Origin: a virus
IMG/VR virus record: IMGVR_UViG_3300048837_000652
Coordinates: 1 to 39,668 of that record
Reading direction: 5' to 3' (one strand)
Length of the DNA: 39,668 bases
A program made the translations under genes and the position numbers. The first letter of the stretch is position 1, and each line of letters opens with the position of its first letter. Shown here one piece after another: positions 753 to 27,613 of this stretch. The notes under the pieces were generated by a model. The model was not told where the DNA came from. It did not search any database and saw nothing but the letters and a program-made list of their open reading frames with translations.

Positions 753-2285
753 ATGGGAACGTCCATTTTCGCCAGTCGCCTCCGTGCCGCGCTCGACGCG
801 CTCTCGGGGCGTCTCATCACCCCGTCCCGCCCCGACTTCCGCCCGAGGACATCGGTCGCCGCCATCACCGCAGCGCAGATCACCTCGGCTCTGTCGCAGG
901 CGGACAACGGAGACCTCCGACAGATCGCCGCCGTCTACGACCTGATCCCGGCGACGGACTCGCACGTTCGCGGCGTCCGGCGGCAACTCATCGCGGGCGT
1001 CCAGTCGCTGCCGGCCGAGGTTATCCCGGTCGACGAGACGCCCGAGGCGCTCCGCGTTGCGGAATACGTGCGCAAGGCTGTCGACTCCCCCGACGCAGGC
1101 ATCCGCGACGCCATCGGCGGGATCGTCGAGGGCGACCTCCGCGGCGCCTCGCTCGTCGAGATAATCTGGAACGACTCGGCCTCGGCCGCGCGGCGATGGG
1201 TCGGGTTCCGGACAGTCCCGCAGCAGCGGCTCCGGTACGACGCGGAGACCGGGGCGCTGCGGGTCGCGCTCGACCCGAACGACAGCAAGGGCCTGCCGCT
1301 GACAGACTTCCCAGGCAAGTTCCTCGTCACCGTCGTCGACCGCGACGTCCCGACGTTCTCGCTTCGCGGCGTCTTCCGCTCGATCCTTGGCGACTGGTTC
1401 GGGCGGCTGAACGTCGGGCAGTGGGAGCAGCAGGCGATCGAGCGGTTCGGGATGCCGGTCCCCGTCGGCAAGTACGGCCGCGAGCAGGATCGGCAAGTCC
1501 TCGAGTCCGCTTTCGCTGATTTCGGATCGGCCGGCTCGCTCGTCGTCTCTGAGGGAACGAGCGTCGAGTTCGCGTCGACATCCGTGCCGACGAACGGGGA
1601 GCTCGTCCACGAGACGTACTTGGAGAAGTCAGCACAGCGGATCTCGGTCGCGCTACTCGGCTCGCAGCAGACGGCGACCGTCGGGACGGACCAGGGCAGC
1701 AAGGTGAGCGCGGCGGTGCACGAGATGGTCCGGCGCGACGTGTTGTATGGACTCTGGCAGTTGATCTCGGAGGTCATCCGCCGCGACCTGTTCGTGCCGT
1801 TCGTCCGGATGAACCTCGGCGAGTCGTTCGTCAAGTACACGCCGCAGTACGTCCCGCAGTTCGACGACGCGGTGGACATGGCGACGACGGCGGCGGCGCT
1901 CCTGACGATCACGCGCGACCTCGGCCTGACGGTCGGGGAAGGCTACGCCCGCGAACTCCTGTCGGTCCCGGCTCCCGCGGAAGGGGAGGCGATTCTCGCT
2001 CCAGCACCGGCCGCACCCGCCCCTAACCCGTTTGCGTCGTTCGGGGCACAGCGCGCCGCTCGGGAAGAGCCTCCGAAACCGGCCTCTCCTCCGCGGGACG
2101 CCGGGGCCGAGATCACTGATCCGATCGCCGCGCTGCTCGACGAGGCGGGCGACCTCGAGTCATTCGCTGCCGCGCTCGACAAGCTCGGGGAGCCGGACGT
2201 GCCGGTGCTGACCGACAAGCTCGGGGCGGCGCTGGCGGATGCGTACCTCGGCGGGCGGGCCGGGGTGCGGGAGGCGAGGAAGTGA
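753..2285 (+). CDS. Portal protein, Mu gp29-like (DUF935 family)
   Basis: The 510-residue portal forms the dodecameric ring at the capsid vertex through which DNA enters and leaves. The length is close to Mu gp29. Family-like features include the stretch ALLGSQQTATVGTDQGS near residue 300, the counterpart of the LLGQTLT-type segment of DUF935 portals, followed by an HEMVRRD helix. The C-terminal 100 residues are rich in Pro and Ala and look flexible. ATG 753 was chosen because an overlapping ATG at 749 is out of frame. The stop overlaps the next gene by 4 bases (GTGAAG). The position after the large terminase fits a Mu-type head module. Confidence 0.9.
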   Translation: MGTSIFASRLRAALDALSGRLITPSRPDFRPRTSVAAITAAQITSALSQADNGDLRQIAAVYDLIPATDSHVRGVRRQLIAGVQSLPAEVIPVDETPEALRVAEYVRKAVDSPDAGIRDAIGGIVEGDLRGASLVEIIWNDSASAARRWVGFRTVPQQRLRYDAETGALRVALDPNDSKGLPLTDFPGKFLVTVVDRDVPTFSLRGVFRSILGDWFGRLNVGQWEQQAIERFGMPVPVGKYGREQDRQVLESAFADFGSAGSLVVSEGTSVEFASTSVPTNGELVHETYLEKSAQRISVALLGSQQTATVGTDQGSKVSAAVHEMVRRDVLYGLWQLISEVIRRDLFVPFVRMNLGESFVKYTPQYVPQFDDAVDMATTAAALLTITRDLGLTVGEGYARELLSVPAPAEGEAILAPAPAAPAPNPFASFGAQRAAREEPPKPASPPRDAGAEITDPIAALLDEAGDLESFAAALDKLGEPDVPVLTDKLGAALADAYLGGRAGVREARK

Positions 2286-3388
2286 AGCAGACCGACCTCT
2301 TCCCGACCAAGGCGATGGCGCTCTCCGATCCAGCGTGGGCTGCGATCGAGCCGAAGCGCGAGCTTGTCTTCCCCGTCGGCGAGCCTGCCGGTAACGATGA
2401 TCGCCGCTGGCGGTTCACGCCGGAGGATCTCGCAGCCGTAGCCGCTGACTTCGCCGGGCGGACCGAGCCGGCGCCCGTGCTCTACCGACACGGTGACGAC
2501 CCGGCGCGCGGCGGGATGGCGGCGGGATGGATCGACGGCGTGGACCTCGCGCCGGACGGGCTCTACGCGCTCATCCGCTACACGGAGCGGGCGCTGTCGG
2601 AGATCAAGGACGGGGCCTGGGGCTTCCGCTCGCCCGGCTTCGATGCGGAGCAGGACGAGGAGGGCTATTGGCGTCCGCGCCGGCTCTCCGAGGTGTCGCT
2701 CGTGAACGACCCGGCTATCGGCGGGATGCCTGCGTTGCAGGCGAAGCGACTCGAAACCGCGCCCGAGGGCGCACTAACCGCCGCGACCAACGGCGAACAG
2801 GAGGAACGCACCATGGGTGACTCCCAGACCGTCACCGCGGCGAAGAAGCAGTCGGCCGCATTCGACAAGCCGGGCATTCTCGCGCTGCTCCGCGAGACGT
2901 ACTCCATGCCCGAGGCCATCTCCGACGAGATGCTCGCCGAGATGCTGGCAAAGGCGCTCGCGGGGGCTCCCGAGCCGGAGATGGACCTCGAGAAGGAGGA
3001 CAAGCCGGCCGACCTCCCGAACCCGCTCGCCGAGGCCGCTGCCAGCGTCAAGCCGCGGATCGAGCTCGTGGAGGACGGGAGCGCCGAGAAGGCCGTCGCC
3101 GAAGCCGAGAAGGCCGGCAAGGTCACCGCCGCGATGCGGCCCGGCGCGCTGAAGTTCGCCTCTGCCGACCCGGCCGGGTTCGCGTCGTTCGTCGCGGCCT
3201 CGCCGGTCGTCGCCCCTGCCGCCGGGCAGATCGTCACGGCTGCGTCCGGCGACCGCACCGTCCAGAAGTTCACGACCGCCGATCTCGGCTCGCCCGAGAA
3301 GCGCGTCCAGATTTCGGCCGCTGCCCGCGCCGTCGCCGCGCGGGAGCACATCTCGATGGACGCCGCCTACGCGCGCGTCCTGGCGTGA
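2282..3388 (+). CDS. Mu-like prohead protease with C-terminal scaffold (I/Z type)
   Basis: A 368-residue head maturation protease fused to scaffold. Residues about 20-160 match the Mu gpI-like protease pattern: RWRFTPEDL, a GWIDGV segment, WGFRSPGF and the late SEVSLVNDPAIGGMPAL strand. After about residue 178 the chain becomes an acidic, Ala- and Glu-rich scaffold-type region. The protease would process scaffold and capsid during prohead maturation. Translation starts at GTG 2282 inside the portal stop. An in-frame internal start at 2813 with a strong ribosome site very likely also produces the scaffold alone, as in phage Mu genes I and Z. Confidence 0.88.
   Translation: MKQTDLFPTKAMALSDPAWAAIEPKRELVFPVGEPAGNDDRRWRFTPEDLAAVAADFAGRTEPAPVLYRHGDDPARGGMAAGWIDGVDLAPDGLYALIRYTERALSEIKDGAWGFRSPGFDAEQDEEGYWRPRRLSEVSLVNDPAIGGMPALQAKRLETAPEGALTAATNGEQEERTMGDSQTVTAAKKQSAAFDKPGILALLRETYSMPEAISDEMLAEMLAKALAGAPEPEMDLEKEDKPADLPNPLAEAAASVKPRIELVEDGSAEKAVAEAEKAGKVTAAMRPGALKFASADPAGFASFVAASPVVAPAAGQIVTAASGDRTVQKFTTADLGSPEKRVQISAAARAVAAREHISMDAAYARVLA
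2799..2815 (+). promoter_or_regulatory. Internal ribosome binding site for scaffold
   Basis: AGGAGG at 2799-2804, then 8 bases, then ATG at 2813, lies inside the protease reading frame exactly at the protease/scaffold boundary. It decides the start of the nested scaffold. Confidence 0.75.
2813..3388 (+). CDS. Nested in-frame scaffold protein (Z-like)
   Basis: ATG 2813 is in frame with the protease gene and is preceded by AGGAGG (2799-2804) at 8-base spacing, one of the best ribosome sites in the window. It would yield a 191-residue protein beginning MGDSQTV that consists of the helical, acidic scaffold region only. In phage Mu the scaffold Z is made from an internal start in protease gene I, so the arrangement matches a known design. 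The nested product is inferred from the initiation signal and the domain boundary, not from measurement. Confidence 0.75.
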   Translation: MGDSQTVTAAKKQSAAFDKPGILALLRETYSMPEAISDEMLAEMLAKALAGAPEPEMDLEKEDKPADLPNPLAEAAASVKPRIELVEDGSAEKAVAEAEKAGKVTAAMRPGALKFASADPAGFASFVAASPVVAPAAGQIVTAASGDRTVQKFTTADLGSPEKRVQISAAARAVAAREHISMDAAYARVLA

Positions 3389-3397
3389 GGTAAGCGA

Positions 3398-3982
3398 ATG
3401 GCGCTCTACAACAAGCCCGGAACTTCCATCTCGATCGCTGCCTCCGCGGCGATCACCGCGAACAAGCTCGTCACGCTCGCGGGCGCGCTTCCTGCGACGC
3501 CGGCCGACGCGCTTGGGGTCGTCCAGTGCGCCGCGGCGAGCGGCGACATGATGACCGTCATTCTCGATGGGGTCGTTCCGATCACGGCGGGCGGGACCGG
3601 AGTCACGGCCGGCGCGGCCGTCGAGGCGCTCGCCGCCGGCACCGTGCAGGACTACTCGTCCGGCACCGTCGTCGGAAGGGCGCTGACCACGGCGGCGGCT
3701 GGCGCCGATGCGTCCGTCCTCCTCAACCCCGCCGCGCGCAACCCCGGCGCGACCATCGCCGGCTATTTCGTCGAGACGGGGAAGGCGGTTCTCGTCGAGG
3801 GGACGGTCACCGTCACCGTGGCCGACATCGCGTCGACCGACCGCGTCTTCCTGACCCGGCAGGTCACCGGCGGCACGGTCGGTAACCTGACCGTCGGGAC
3901 GATCACGGCGGACACGTCGTTCGTCATCACGTCCGACAGCGCGACCGAGACCTCGACGATTTCGTGGGCCATCGTGAGGTAA
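3398..3982 (+). CDS. Capsid decoration (cement) protein, DUF2190-like
   Basis: A 194-residue protein just before the major capsid gene. Residues 1-115 show the low-complexity beta pattern of DUF2190-type capsid cement proteins (N-terminal YNKPGTSISI, a GALGVVQ-like turn, a GIVPITAGGTGVTAG-like stretch). From about residue 130 there is a separate beta-rich domain (VLVEGTVTVTVADI ... TISWAIVR) of a kind also seen on the ends of phage fibre and head proteins. It probably binds the outside of the capsid shell and stabilises it. GAGGTAAG lies upstream of the ATG. Family assignment is by pattern only. Confidence 0.72.
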   Translation: MALYNKPGTSISIAASAAITANKLVTLAGALPATPADALGVVQCAAASGDMMTVILDGVVPITAGGTGVTAGAAVEALAAGTVQDYSSGTVVGRALTTAAAGADASVLLNPAARNPGATIAGYFVETGKAVLVEGTVTVTVADIASTDRVFLTRQVTGGTVGNLTVGTITADTSFVITSDSATETSTISWAIVR

Positions 3983-3988
3983 CAAGAG

Positions 3989-4945
3989 ATGAGCAGCAAC
4001 TTCGGACACACCTCCGTCGCTCCCGACCCGATCCTGACTGACTTCGCCGTCCAGTACGGGGCCGGTGGCGGCTTCATCGCCGACAAGGTCGCGCCGATCG
4101 TCATGATGGCCGACCCCAACTTCAAGATCCCGACGTACAAGAACGCGGCGATCAACGACGACATCGTCGCGGCCATCGGCCCGCGCGATTCGGCGAACGA
4201 GATCAGCCGATACGCGCCGACCTTCGCCGCGTCCGCCTCGAAGCGGTACGCGCTGAAGCACGGCATCACGCGCGAGGTCAAGCTCGCCGCGCCGATGAGT
4301 CCGCTCGGGAACGAGCAGGCCACCGTCGAGGAACTGACCGGGAAGCTCCGGCTCGGCGCCGAGAAGCGAATCAAGACGCTCCTCGACGCGGCCGGGACCG
4401 CCGCCAGCGCCCCGTCGGTCAAGTGGGACGCGACGAGCGGGACGATCGTCATCGAGAAGGCGTTCGACAACGCACGCGAGGCGTTCGTCAAGCTCTGCGG
4501 GTTCGAGGCGAACGCCGTCGTGATCCCGTCGGAAGTCGCCAAAGCGATGAAGAGGGACACGACCATCCGCGACCTCCGCAAGTACACGGACCCGTCTCTC
4601 GTCGTCAACGGCGATCTCCCCGAGCGCCTCTGGGGGCTCGAGGTCATCATCCCCGGCGCGCTCAACAACACGGCCGCTCCCGGACTGACGCAGAGCATCT
4701 CGCGCGTCTGGTCCACCGACACGGTCTACCTCCTCCACCTCAACCCGTCCATCAGCGGCAACGGCGCTGCGATGACCGCCGCCGCGCAGTTCCGTTACGC
4801 GAACTGGGGATCGGCATTCCAGTCGTACATCTGGGACGACCCGGACCTCTCGGTCAAGGTCACTTGGGTTGCCGTCGAGGTCCACCAGGTCGAAGCGCTC
4901 GTCTGCGGAGACGCCGTCTACCGCATCCCCGACGTCCTCACCTAA
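3989..4945 (+). CDS. Major capsid protein
   Basis: A 318-residue protein, assigned as the main shell subunit by its length, its position after protease/scaffold and decoration genes, and its sequence. The early segment FIADKVAPIVMMADPNFKIPTY, an arginine-rich middle with the motif YALKHGITREVK, and a C-terminal beta region (FQSYIWDDPDLSVKVTW) fit HK97-fold capsid proteins of Mu-like and related siphophages. It follows the decoration gene by 6 bases and is followed by a strong hairpin, so its transcript probably ends or is processed there. The exact capsid family is not certain. Confidence 0.85.
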   Translation: MSSNFGHTSVAPDPILTDFAVQYGAGGGFIADKVAPIVMMADPNFKIPTYKNAAINDDIVAAIGPRDSANEISRYAPTFAASASKRYALKHGITREVKLAAPMSPLGNEQATVEELTGKLRLGAEKRIKTLLDAAGTAASAPSVKWDATSGTIVIEKAFDNAREAFVKLCGFEANAVVIPSEVAKAMKRDTTIRDLRKYTDPSLVVNGDLPERLWGLEVIIPGALNNTAAPGLTQSISRVWSTDTVYLLHLNPSISGNGAAMTAAAQFRYANWGSAFQSYIWDDPDLSVKVTWVAVEVHQVEALVCGDAVYRIPDVLT

Positions 4946-10105: not shown

Positions 10106-11614
10106 GTGAGCGACTTCCCGCTGCTCGACCGGATTCTCGCGCTTTGGATGAAGCGCCGACTCATCACGCCAGAGCAGGCCGCGCGTGTTGCAGATGCGCT
10201 ACGCGGACAGGTCTTTTCCCTCGCACAACAGTGGGAGGAGAAAGTCCTCGAGAAGGTACGTGATGTTCTCGGCAAGGCGATCGCCGAAGGCTGGTCCATG
10301 AAGGAGTTCAAGGACGCAGCCGCCGAGACGCTCGCGCGCTTCAATGACGGCAACTATGCCGAGGTCGTCTTCCGGACCAACGTCTCGAACGCAGCCGCAG
10401 CCGGGCGCTACGAGGAGATGTTCGCTCCGGAATACGTGGACGAGGCGCCGTATTGGGAGTTCGCCGCCGTCACCGATGCGCGGAACGACGCCGACGACGA
10501 ATGCCCGGACACGCGCTGCCGGTGGCTGAACGGGAAGACGTTCCGCAAGACCGACACGGCGGCGCAGGCATTCCTTCCGCCGCTCCACTTCCAGTGCTTC
10601 CCCGCCGGTACGCCGGTCCGCGGCCGATTCGATGGCGGGCTAAAAGCCCTTTACTCTGGGGAAGTCGTCGAGATGGTGACCCGGCGAGGGAATAGGCTTG
10701 CCGTAACCAGAAATCATCCCGTAGCGACGCCGCATGGACTCGTCCCGGCGTACACACTCCGCGAAGGCGATGCACTCCTGTGCTATCCGGGAGGCATCGA
10801 AGACCGGCTTGATTCGGACAGGGCGAACGTAGCGGTGTCGGCTGTCTTTGACCCTGATGATTCCAGACTGCCGGTCGTACGCCACTACGAACAGGACGGA
10901 CCATCCGAGATCGACAAGACGCTGGAGACGCTCGCGTTGATGGGCGACCTGCGTCGTACCGCGCCACGGGCTACCGATGATCTCTACGGCGACGCACGCG
11001 CCATCGATGGAGATGTCGAGGTTGTAACGCTCAACGGCGAGTTGTTGCGTCACAGCGGCCCCGAGCGAGCGGAGCGCGGCAGCGACCTCCTTCTCTCCGC
11101 GATGCACGAAGCGAAGGCGCTCGTATCGCGTGCGCGCCAGCTTCGCCATCGTATCGGCGGACTTTTCCTTCCCGGTAGCAGCCTTCCAGGCGGCACCGCA
11201 CTGGCGTTCGACGGCGGCGCGGTCCTTCTTCAGCGCAGCCCATTTGATGAACTCCGCTTCGGAGCGGCCACGCGGGGAGACGCCACGATCGAGAAGTCTC
11301 GCGCGGATCGCGCCGCGTGCGACCCCGAGCGAATCGGCGATTCGCTTCTCAGACTCCCCGGACTGGTAGCGGTTGACGATGTCATCCACGTCGAGAGCAA
11401 GCTTGTACGGCATCTCCCTGTCTATGACCTCCAGTCGCCTTACGGCTGGATTTTAGCAGGGAACATCTACGCTAGCAACTGCCGCTGCATGACGATCGAA
11501 CGGACCGAGATGGAACTGAAAGGCGCTGTCATGTCTGGTGATCGCATCCCGTTCTCTCCGGTTTCGGGATGGGGCGGCAACCGGCTCACGTCGCTCCTGG
11601 GAGGGCTCCTCTGA
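10106..11614 (+). CDS. MuF-like minor head protein interrupted by an intein
   Basis: A 502-residue precursor. Residues 1-163 and 459-502 make up a phage Mu gpF-type head morphogenesis protein of 207 residues: a helical N-terminus, then VFRTNVSNAAAAGRYEEM, WEFAAVTDARNDADDECPDTRCRWLNG and LPPLHFQ, which rejoins CRCMTIERTE to restore the family's LHxxCRC motif. Residues 164-458 are an intein. The mature F protein normally sits inside the head by the portal and helps assembly. The start ATG/GTG region overlaps nothing and follows the endolysin by 2 bases. The stop is immediately followed by the next gene. The opposite strand of the intein carries another gene. Confidence 0.9.
   Translation: MSDFPLLDRILALWMKRRLITPEQAARVADALRGQVFSLAQQWEEKVLEKVRDVLGKAIAEGWSMKEFKDAAAETLARFNDGNYAEVVFRTNVSNAAAAGRYEEMFAPEYVDEAPYWEFAAVTDARNDADDECPDTRCRWLNGKTFRKTDTAAQAFLPPLHFQCFPAGTPVRGRFDGGLKALYSGEVVEMVTRRGNRLAVTRNHPVATPHGLVPAYTLREGDALLCYPGGIEDRLDSDRANVAVSAVFDPDDSRLPVVRHYEQDGPSEIDKTLETLALMGDLRRTAPRATDDLYGDARAIDGDVEVVTLNGELLRHSGPERAERGSDLLLSAMHEAKALVSRARQLRHRIGGLFLPGSSLPGGTALAFDGGAVLLQRSPFDELRFGAATRGDATIEKSRADRAACDPERIGDSLLRLPGLVAVDDVIHVESKLVRHLPVYDLQSPYGWILAGNIYASNCRCMTIERTEMELKGAVMSGDRIPFSPVSGWGGNRLTSLLGGLL
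10640..11413 (-). CDS. Antisense homing endonuclease-like protein within the intein (HTH plus Vsr/EDxHD-like)
   Basis: The only convincing minus-strand gene: 257 residues, ATG at 11413. Residues about 8-48 form a resolvase-like helix-turn-helix (DIVNRYQSGESEKRIADSLG, then VARGAIRARLLDRG). Residues about 105-180 match the Vsr-like endonuclease pattern found in phage homing endonucleases: a conserved E.L.SLG helix, ERYNLDISIDG (Asp133), VAVEIIGSPW (Glu144, Trp150), HQRERLQRLVDLGWSVLFV. The core covers the intein's usual endonuclease slot but in reverse orientation; the C-terminal tail is antisense to intein block B. It would cut intein-less MuF genes to spread the intein. It has its own promoter-like sequence upstream. 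Confidence 0.82.
   Translation of the reverse strand: MPYKLALDVDDIVNRYQSGESEKRIADSLGVARGAIRARLLDRGVSPRGRSEAEFIKWAALKKDRAAVERQCGAAWKAATGKEKSADTMAKLARTRYERLRFVHRGEKEVAAALRSLGAAVTQQLAVERYNLDISIDGACVAVEIIGSPWRGTTQVAHQRERLQRLVDLGWSVLFVVAYDRQSGIIRVKDSRHRYVRPVRIKPVFDASRIAQECIAFAECVRRDESMRRRYGMISGYGKPIPSPGHHLDDFPRVKGF
11450..11478 (-). promoter_or_regulatory. Sigma70-like promoter for the antisense endonuclease
   Basis: Reading the minus strand, TTGCTA (11478-11473) and TAAAAT (11455-11450) are separated by exactly 17 bases, close to the TTGACA/TATAAT consensus. Transcription would begin near 11443, about 30 bases before ATG 11413. The leader contains GGAGGT (14 bases before the ATG) and GGGAG next to the ATG. 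The promoter lies across intein blocks F/G and the splice junction, so one DNA stretch serves both strands. Confidence 0.6.
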
Positions 11615-26185: not shown

Positions 26186-27613
26186 ATGGCAACCGTCGTC
26201 TTGATCGACCTCTCGTCGATCGCGCATCCCATCTGGCACATGAGCCAGGCCGACCCGGACCAGAACTCGACCTCGACGCAGACGGTGGCGAAGGTCCGCG
26301 CGCTCGCCACCGGACAGCCGCACGTCGCCGTGTGCTGCGATTCCGGCAAGTCGTTCCGCGCCGAGATCGACCCGACATACAAGGCCAACCGCGGAGAGCA
26401 CGACGCAGCCCTCATGCACCAGATCGAGGTAGCGAAGGAGCGGCTCGCTGGCGACGGGTTCCCGGTCTGGGCTCAGCCGGGCATGGAGGCGGACGACCTC
26501 ATCGCCACTGCGACGCAGCGCGCGACCGAGGCCGCGCACGAAGTCCTCGTGATCTCGGCCGACAAGGATCTCCTCCAGCTCGTCGGCCCGAAGGTGCGCG
26601 TCCGCTCGCCGCAGACCGGCACGGAGTACGACGCCGAGGCCGTCGAGATGAAGCTCGGCGTACCCCCGGAGAAGGTCCGCGACTACCTGGCCCTCGTCGG
26701 CGACGCATCCGACAACGTCAAGGGCGCGCCGGGCATAGGCCCAAAGAAGGCGGCGCTGCTCCTCTGGACGTATGGAGACCTCGAAGGGATCTATGCCGAG
26801 GCCGCTCGGCAGCCGTCCGCGCTGAAGCCCTCCGAGGCCGCGTCGCTGGCCAACTTCGCGCCGCGCATGGAGACGGTGCGGTCGCTCGTCTCACTCCGGT
26901 ACGACGCGGCGATTCCGTTCGATGAGCTATTCGCACCGCGCACGCCCAAGGAAGTCGAGACGTTCGTCCCCGAGGAGGAGGAGAGCGAGATGGAGACGCC
27001 CGAAGCGGAGAAGCCGACGCTCGCCCCCGTGACCGCGCTCGCCGTGCGCGAGGCCGACATCCTCGCCCCGGCCCCCGTCGAGTGGGAGCGGCAGCTCGAC
27101 CCGCGCTCGATGGACCAAGCGCGCAAGCTCGCCCGCGATCTCTTCGACTCGCGGATGTTCTCGGCGTATGGCACGCCTCAGGGAGTCCTCTCGACGATCA
27201 TGGTCGGCCGCGAGCTAGGGCTCCCGGCTATGGCCGCGCTCCGGTCGATCCACAACCTCGACGGCAAGCACACGCTTTCCGCCTCGCTCATGGCGGCGCT
27301 CGTTCTCCGGTCGGGGCTGGCCGAGTTCTTCGAGCCGGTCTCCTTCGACGCGACGCAGGCGACGTACGAGACGAAGAGGCGCGGCGCGCGTAATCCCGTG
27401 AAGCTGACGCACACGATCGAGATGTCCCGGCAGGCGTGGCCTAAGAGCGAGGATGCGTGGAACAAGAGCGGATGGGGCAAGAACCCGACCGATATGCTCG
27501 TCGCTCGCGCACAGGCCCGCCTCGCCCGCCTCGTGTACCCCGACCTGCTCGCCGGACTCTACACGCCGGAGGAGCTCGCCGAGATCCGGCAGGAGGTGGC
27601 GAATGCCGCTTGA
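26186..27613 (+). CDS. 5'-3' exonuclease (FEN/PolI-N type) fused to RecT-like annealase
   Basis: A 475-residue protein. Residues 1-245 are a flap/5' exonuclease: Asp8 in VVLIDLSS, Asp52 in CCDSGKS with YKANRGEHDA, EADDLIA (101-107), ISADKDLLQL (Asp126, Asp128) and the helix-hairpin-helix GDASDNVKGAPGIGPKKAA (172-190). An acidic linker (about 252-300) leads to residues 300-475 that match a RecT-like single-strand annealing protein: STIMVGRELGLPAMAAL, SIHNLDGKHTLSASLMAAL, WNKSGWGKNPTDMLVARAQA and PDLLAGLYTPEEL. It joins the two halves of an exonuclease/annealase recombination system in one chain. AGGAGAAG precedes ATG 26186. Confidence 0.82.
   Translation: MATVVLIDLSSIAHPIWHMSQADPDQNSTSTQTVAKVRALATGQPHVAVCCDSGKSFRAEIDPTYKANRGEHDAALMHQIEVAKERLAGDGFPVWAQPGMEADDLIATATQRATEAAHEVLVISADKDLLQLVGPKVRVRSPQTGTEYDAEAVEMKLGVPPEKVRDYLALVGDASDNVKGAPGIGPKKAALLLWTYGDLEGIYAEAARQPSALKPSEAASLANFAPRMETVRSLVSLRYDAAIPFDELFAPRTPKEVETFVPEEEESEMETPEAEKPTLAPVTALAVREADILAPAPVEWERQLDPRSMDQARKLARDLFDSRMFSAYGTPQGVLSTIMVGRELGLPAMAALRSIHNLDGKHTLSASLMAALVLRSGLAEFFEPVSFDATQATYETKRRGARNPVKLTHTIEMSRQAWPKSEDAWNKSGWGKNPTDMLVARAQARLARLVYPDLLAGLYTPEELAEIRQEVANAA
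26990..27613 (+). CDS. Possible nested start giving free annealase
   Basis: ATG 26990 (Met269) is in frame, in the acidic linker just before the annealase domain, and is preceded by GAGGAGGAGGAG (26972-26983), a strong Shine-Dalgarno-like run at suitable spacing. It would give a 207-residue protein with only the RecT-like domain. The run also simply encodes Glu residues, so the site may be accidental. Confidence 0.4.
   Translation: METPEAEKPTLAPVTALAVREADILAPAPVEWERQLDPRSMDQARKLARDLFDSRMFSAYGTPQGVLSTIMVGRELGLPAMAALRSIHNLDGKHTLSASLMAALVLRSGLAEFFEPVSFDATQATYETKRRGARNPVKLTHTIEMSRQAWPKSEDAWNKSGWGKNPTDMLVARAQARLARLVYPDLLAGLYTPEELAEIRQEVANAA

Follow-up and report, generated by a model that had tools for sequence, protein, structure and literature searches.

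How can an intein be mobile when it carries no endonuclease in its own reading frame, and what is the long open reading frame that faces it on the other strand? Both questions are raised by a locus within a viral stretch of 39,668 nucleotides (IMG/VR record IMGVR_UViG_3300048837_000652, hereafter the window). The window is a tailed-phage genome with portal, head maturation protease, major head protein and primase-helicase genes (753-4945 among the regions cited), and no near match to its first 24 kb was found in the phage collection. The MuF gene that concerns us lies ca. 5 kb after the major head gene and does not adjoin the portal gene. Farther along, the N-terminal half of the ORF at 26186-27613 (+) has a match to an exonuclease family and the C-terminal half to RecT-like annealing proteins, so that two recombination functions may be fused in one protein.

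A first-pass annotation, made from the letters of the window alone, had proposed an intein on the plus strand of the MuF gene and a homing endonuclease gene nested in it on the minus strand. Both reading frames, the minus one with 257 codons and an ATG start, were recovered exactly where they had been placed (Table 1). We consider it very likely, with a probability of roughly 0.87, that this is a mobile intein with a separate homing endonuclease gene on the opposite strand. This reading draws on the two frames, on the families and folds predicted for their proteins, on selection in both directions, and on expression signals, empty insertion sites and horizontal exchange, from which we infer splicing, cutting and homing.

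Table 1. Features of the intein-interrupted MuF gene and of the gene nested antisense within it (window coordinates)
Feature	Position	Strand	Basis
MuF-type minor capsid gene, intein-interrupted, 502-aa precursor	10106..11614	+	PF04233 E 1.4e-8; phrog_15127 head protein 2e-24
N-extein, ending ...PPLHFQ	10106..10594	+	PF04233 6.1e-8 for the N-extein alone
Intein, 295 aa, Cys1 to Asn295, then Cys+1	10595..11479	+	Alignments with relatives
Block B of the intein, TRNH (T38-x-N40-H41), opposite the C-terminal end of the endonuclease	10706..10717	+	Family alignment
Intein blocks F and G (VYDLQ...NIYASN)	11420..11479	+	Alignment; high-confidence strands in the AlphaFold model
C-extein, first residues CRCM = conserved MuF C-R-C motif	11480..11614	+	Alignment
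Endonuclease gene in antisense, 257 aa, position 2 of its codons opposite position 2 of the MuF codons	10640..11413	-	Homology, fold, family conservation
Helix-turn-helix (HTH), residues 11-52	11258..11383	-	PF19575 0.0018; three helices in the model
Nuclease core, residues 107-174 (E107, Q124, N131, D133, E144)	10892..11095	-	PF18741 2.6e-8; fold match 3r3p
Shine-Dalgarno GGAGGT, 13 nt before the ATG (ca. 8 nt in most relatives)	11427..11432	-	Sequence; family pattern
Sigma-70-like promoter TTGCTA-17-TAAAAT, extended TG, within block G	11450..11478	-	Sequence; family-wide enrichment at the same place

The plus strand bears out the splicing blocks that had been read there: Cys1, block B and the Asn295|Cys+1 junction are all present, and the profile and fold matches are almost all inteins. 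Among the aligned inteins of the family Cys1 is invariant, as are N40 and H41 of block B, with T38 conserved in at least 90% of the 48 inteins aligned there. The residue before the terminal Asn is Ser in the window and His in many relatives, and the insertion point, ..N|C[RK]C, is common to most other inteins of the family. The window intein sequence alone has no Pfam match at 0.01; 47 of 48 intein relatives match PF14890, and the family profile (A7) matches solved inteins (2jmz, 4e-12). In the AlphaFold model of the intein, residues ca. 1-66 and 257-295 mostly have a pLDDT of 92-98, residues 188-242 and 249-255 fall below 50 and much of the middle is predicted to be disordered. The top PDB matches found by Foldseek for this model are nearly all inteins. 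Once spliced in silico, the window MuF aligns across the junction with intein-less MuF proteins. Profile searches of the 502-aa product matched MuF (PF04233) and found no endonuclease family; the in-frame endonuclease domain of a canonical homing intein is absent. The segment is, by sequence and model, an intein in a minor-capsid gene, with splicing predicted.

The endonuclease appears on the minus strand, and only there, when both strands are searched with profiles as the first-pass annotation had advised. The match of the window protein to PF18741 (MTES_1575), at 34.3 bits, lies under the curated cut-off of 38.2. Among 80 family sequences E107, N131 and D133 are invariant and Q124 and E144 are kept in at least 90%. 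The AlphaFold model, built with 80 family sequences, has a pLDDT of 88.8, and its four best Foldseek matches are 3r3p and Vsr, with probabilities of 0.99-1.00. The best in the PDB is I-Bth0305I (3r3p), with a modest E of 6.6e-3, a probability of 1.00 and a TM of 0.60 of the target. A PDB sequence search with the single window endonuclease returned only weak HMG or other noise; 3r3p (5.8e-7) emerged with the family profile, together with 3hrl (2.9e-7). By tblastn, the window protein found antisense ORFs in distant phages with E from 3e-22 to 7e-21. The HTH and Vsr-type core suspected earlier are thus both placed on this strand by profile and fold searches. The protein is an HTH protein with a Vsr/I-Bth0305I-type nuclease domain, for which the conserved residues predict nuclease activity.

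The arrangement is far more widespread than the first-pass annotation had recognized, with well over a hundred distinct loci. Some of the phages that carry it can be propagated on common laboratory hosts. Searching the phage records by tblastn, we obtained 67 records with the window minus protein, many of the matches antisense under genes annotated as head morphogenesis or MuF, and 105 with its Aaphi23 homologue, 62 of them Salmonella phages, mainly Jersey-like. A family search led by the endonuclease, disregarding what the opposite strand encodes and covering viral and bacterial contigs, yielded 138 distinct loci of the endonuclease, which fall into 100 clusters at 60% identity. The loci fetched include Cronobacter phage ES2, Pseudomonas phage CF23a, the Gordonia phages Vivi2, Malisha, Angelicage and Fosterous, Aaphi23, Idiomarinaceae phage 1N2-2, Jersey-like phages, Edwardsiella phage MSW-3, Klebsiella phage KpTDp1, Vibrio phages, a Helicobacter prophage and a Chloroflexota plasmid. 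Only one fetched record, that of Acinetobacter phage BUCT629, in which MuF is intein-free, has the endonuclease annotated as a gene. The antisense endonuclease is almost never annotated in GenBank, a systematic error that arises when a gene caller retains one of two overlapping strands and discards its partner.

In 136 of the 138 loci the endonuclease lies antisense inside an intein, always with codon position 2 facing position 2. The frame facing it is free of stops over the whole endonuclease alignment in these same 136 (mean 249 codons, G+C 0.30-0.70), and the remaining two antisense frames have on average 18.6 and 8.8 stops. The related inteins were likewise examined for stops in the minus frame, which would have spoken against the earlier proposal, and none was found. 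Of these 136 loci, 117 have a block B and 125 have blocks F/G that simple patterns could detect. In 90 loci the start of the endonuclease lies opposite the intein codon found 21 residues ahead of the intein end; in 111 of the 117 loci with a block B, that block is overlapped by the endonuclease C-terminus. Among 94 N-exteins, 70 match Phage_Mu_F and 4 other minor-capsid-type families. A search led instead by the intein blocks found the antisense endonuclease, in the same phase, in 74/74 distinct loci; this sample is not fully unbiased, since it consisted of the best 80 by similarity to family members. Two IMG/VR contigs (L097 and L098) have the intein with its antisense endonuclease in a uracil-DNA glycosylase gene, at the junction HNTISC|HPPG, so that the element is not restricted to MuF; joining the exteins of L097 gave a glycosylase match of E 2.4e-18 vs 4.8e-5 for the N-extein alone. 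One MuF intein (L096) seems to sit at a second site, before a TWDSRTRDDH motif and not at C-R-C.

Both strands are under selection, as judged from codon choice and substitutions across the family. A TTA, CTA or TCA codon in the endonuclease is a stop on the MuF strand; given the Leu and Ser content of 94 endonucleases and the codon preferences of the exteins around each, 578 such codons would be expected, and there is none among 3358 (log10 P ca. -298). The converse test gave a log10 P of -388. Substitutions per codon at MuF positions 1/2/3, computed over separate pairs, were 0.28/0.23/0.51 in the N-exteins, 0.14/0.07/0.30 around block A, 0.13/0.04/0.17 in block B, 0.33/0.11/0.20 in the middle segment and 0.10/0.07/0.32 in blocks F/G. 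The excess is therefore at MuF position 3 in the exteins and blocks A, F and G, and at MuF position 1, which is endonuclease position 3, in mid-intein, i.e., over the nuclease gene the wobble position is that of the nuclease strand. This agrees with the earlier description of the plus-strand middle as a translated antisense shadow: its substitutions follow the endonuclease wobble and much of it is predicted to be disordered. Block B looks constrained from both sides. There, the C-terminal YGVIRGNGK of the nuclease faces TVTPNHP; we weighed whether the former is a mere antisense of block B, and the segment is not assignable to a single strand because its divergence is low and its position pattern mixed. 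The plus-strand motif DFHGD...EVEVV (ca. 10955-11030 in the window, and in relatives) is conserved opposite the nuclease core YNxD...VAVE, and its conservation is probably in large part a shadow of that core. Part of this segment has fair confidence in the intein AlphaFold model, and it may have an additional structural role in the intein.

The last ca. 25 codons of the intein also appear to carry, antisense, a sigma-70 promoter, a Shine-Dalgarno sequence and the ATG of the endonuclease, signals that the first-pass annotation had not noted. The block F peptide H-V-Y-[DN]-L-[QE] reads on the other strand as GGAGGTTATAAAC-ATG or near, that is, as Shine-Dalgarno, spacer and start. Its codons are biased accordingly, the His codon being CAT in 63/69 (background 0.43, P 4e-17) and the Leu codon CTC in 48/62 (background 0.20, P 4e-22). 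Antisense to block G, a perfect TTGACA-N17/18-TATAAT occurs in 8 of 90 loci vs 0.1 expected when codons are redrawn for the same peptide, and promoters with at least 10 of 12 matches in 26 vs 6.2 expected. Use of sigma-70 is suggested by this consensus. The promoter in the window is imperfect (9/12) and, given also the 13 nt from Shine-Dalgarno to ATG, translation of its endonuclease could be weak.

Two loci depart from the common architecture. In BUCT629 (L013:1465-2397) and in a second contig (L092:2992-3858), a free-standing endonuclease lies antisense just 3' of an intein-less MuF gene, the C-R-C (or C-K-C) site of which is intact. The strand opposite these endonucleases has 12 stops in the first and 5 in the second. 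Both are nested within the endonuclease tree, at two different spots, and hence two intein losses are the simplest derivation: probably the intein was lost, the endonuclease was retained and the opposite-strand stops appeared afterwards.

The element also seems to move. With joined flanks as query, and counting a match only when most of the uninterrupted site was found in one place, the site was uninterrupted in 303 of 367 Salmonella/Escherichia phage records and in 86 of 116 Gordonia records. Presence and absence at one exact site were seen among close relatives; in Escherichia phages, vB_EcoS_GZMU_E2010 (L010) bears the intein and its relative LotteLoewe_Bas71 is free of it. Divergence is discordant as well, in both directions: between L011 and L023 the inteins differ by ca. 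5% and the N-exteins by 29-31%, and L146/L150 have the reverse pattern, with the intein more divergent than the N-extein. Empty sites and discordant divergence are the pattern of a horizontally moving element, as homing would predict. It seems likely that we are dealing with an old and widespread two-sided phage element, with an intein on one strand and a complete HTH-nuclease transcription unit on the other in one fixed codon phase, in which block B and blocks F/G would be double-coded as the nuclease C-terminus and as expression signals. It would have reached at least one other host gene, that of uracil-DNA glycosylase, and given rise to two free-standing derivatives via intein loss.

Could the minus ORF be spurious overprinting, a frame that happens to be open in GC-rich DNA on the reverse of a real intein? 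The window alone is open to this doubt: it has 67% G+C, a composition at which stops seldom close a facing frame, this phase is the antisense one most readily kept open and the absence of TTA, CTA and TCA in this one gene is a weak signal (log10 P = -1.7). However, a chance frame would account neither for the nuclease and HTH homology with a high-confidence fold, nor for an arrangement kept in loci down to 30% G+C, nor for coding-type substitutions at third positions and the Shine-Dalgarno and promoter signals. Homology, stop avoidance and the substitution pattern across the family led us to reject this explanation, to which we give next to no credence. Only a little less improbable is that the plus strand holds no working intein, the endonuclease having been inserted antisense in MuF with the plus frame accidentally open or the gene inactivated. 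The largely disordered middle of the plus product would suit such a history, and splicing is a prediction. Yet Cys1, T-x-N-H, the C-terminal Asn and Cys+1 are conserved, blocks A, F and G evolve at codon position 3 as in a protein-coding gene, nearly all relatives match the intein domain, the exteins are intact capsid genes and no stop interrupts the frame in any of 136 loci. An inactive plus strand was discarded on the conserved splicing residues and this open frame.

A protein kept for another job, either regulation of MuF or the capsid through its HTH or action against competing phages, is unlikely, if the least far-fetched of these alternatives. HTH domains are prominent in the family, and an antisense transcript that runs through MuF could itself control the capsid gene. 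Against it, the nuclease core is preserved (E107, N131 and D133 without exception and E144 in at least 90% of the 80 sequences), and the presence/absence polymorphism and horizontal exchange fit homing, with which a second role would still be compatible.

The mobile intein with its own antisense nuclease gene would work as follows. The MuF strand would give a capsid-protein precursor, from which the terminal Hint blocks A, B, F and G would splice out the intein, the long segment between them being largely a by-product peptide tolerated in splicing. The other strand, from its own promoter, ribosome-binding site and ATG antisense in F/G, would give the HTH and Vsr/I-Bth0305I-type nuclease. In a co-infected cell the nuclease may cleave MuF genes that lack the intein, at their conserved C-R-C region, and repair of the cut MuF would copy the whole element.

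Several parts of this assembly have known counterparts. Dassa et al. in 2009 reportedly described fractured genes in which the two halves of a split intein are separate genes and a Vsr-like endonuclease gene stands free between them. That system shares with ours a free-standing Vsr-like endonuclease gene associated with a phage intein; the window intein, however, is one uninterrupted ORF with the endonuclease on the reverse strand. I-Bth0305I, of the EDxHD/Vsr-like type (3R3P), is the nearest solved nuclease by fold and also a profile match, and is similar in being a phage protein with a DNA-binding part and a nuclease, associated with a splicing element that interrupts a conserved gene. It is listed among the group I intron homing endonucleases (PMC3943268), whereas the window gene lies antisense within an intein, the coding blocks of which it overlaps. 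Canonical homing inteins (PI-SceI type, with an in-frame LAGLIDADG domain) likewise combine a splicing domain and a homing enzyme in one mobile element at a conserved site, but their nuclease and intein are translated together as one fusion (PMC3943268), whereas that of the window is encoded separately, from start signals of its own on the other strand. In the same capsid gene family, a MuF intein of a Methylococcus capsulatus Mu-like prophage was reported in 2004 to lack a recognizable endonuclease (PMC517821) and the Jerseyvirus capsid morphogenesis protein to contain an intein (PMC8425127); the intein passages of these two papers do not mention an antisense gene. Our search, which covered open papers and a minority of preprints, found no description of an antisense nested endonuclease in an intein. 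A recent preprint on actinobacteriophage inteins, the title of which is said to refer to a non-canonical architecture, could already describe part of the arrangement. The homing intein and the Vsr-like homing endonuclease are thus known, and the antisense double-coded assembly with built-in expression signals appears to be new.

If this reading is true, the homing enzyme of an intein can be encoded as a gene of its own on the reverse strand, and splicing and nuclease expression become separately controllable. The MuF inteins described as endonuclease-less may be explained in this way. It would also be an unusually clean example of long conserved antisense protein coding in bacteria and phages, a contested subject: loci that span 30-70% G+C are numerous, both strands are constrained, expression signals accompany them and two natural losses serve as controls.
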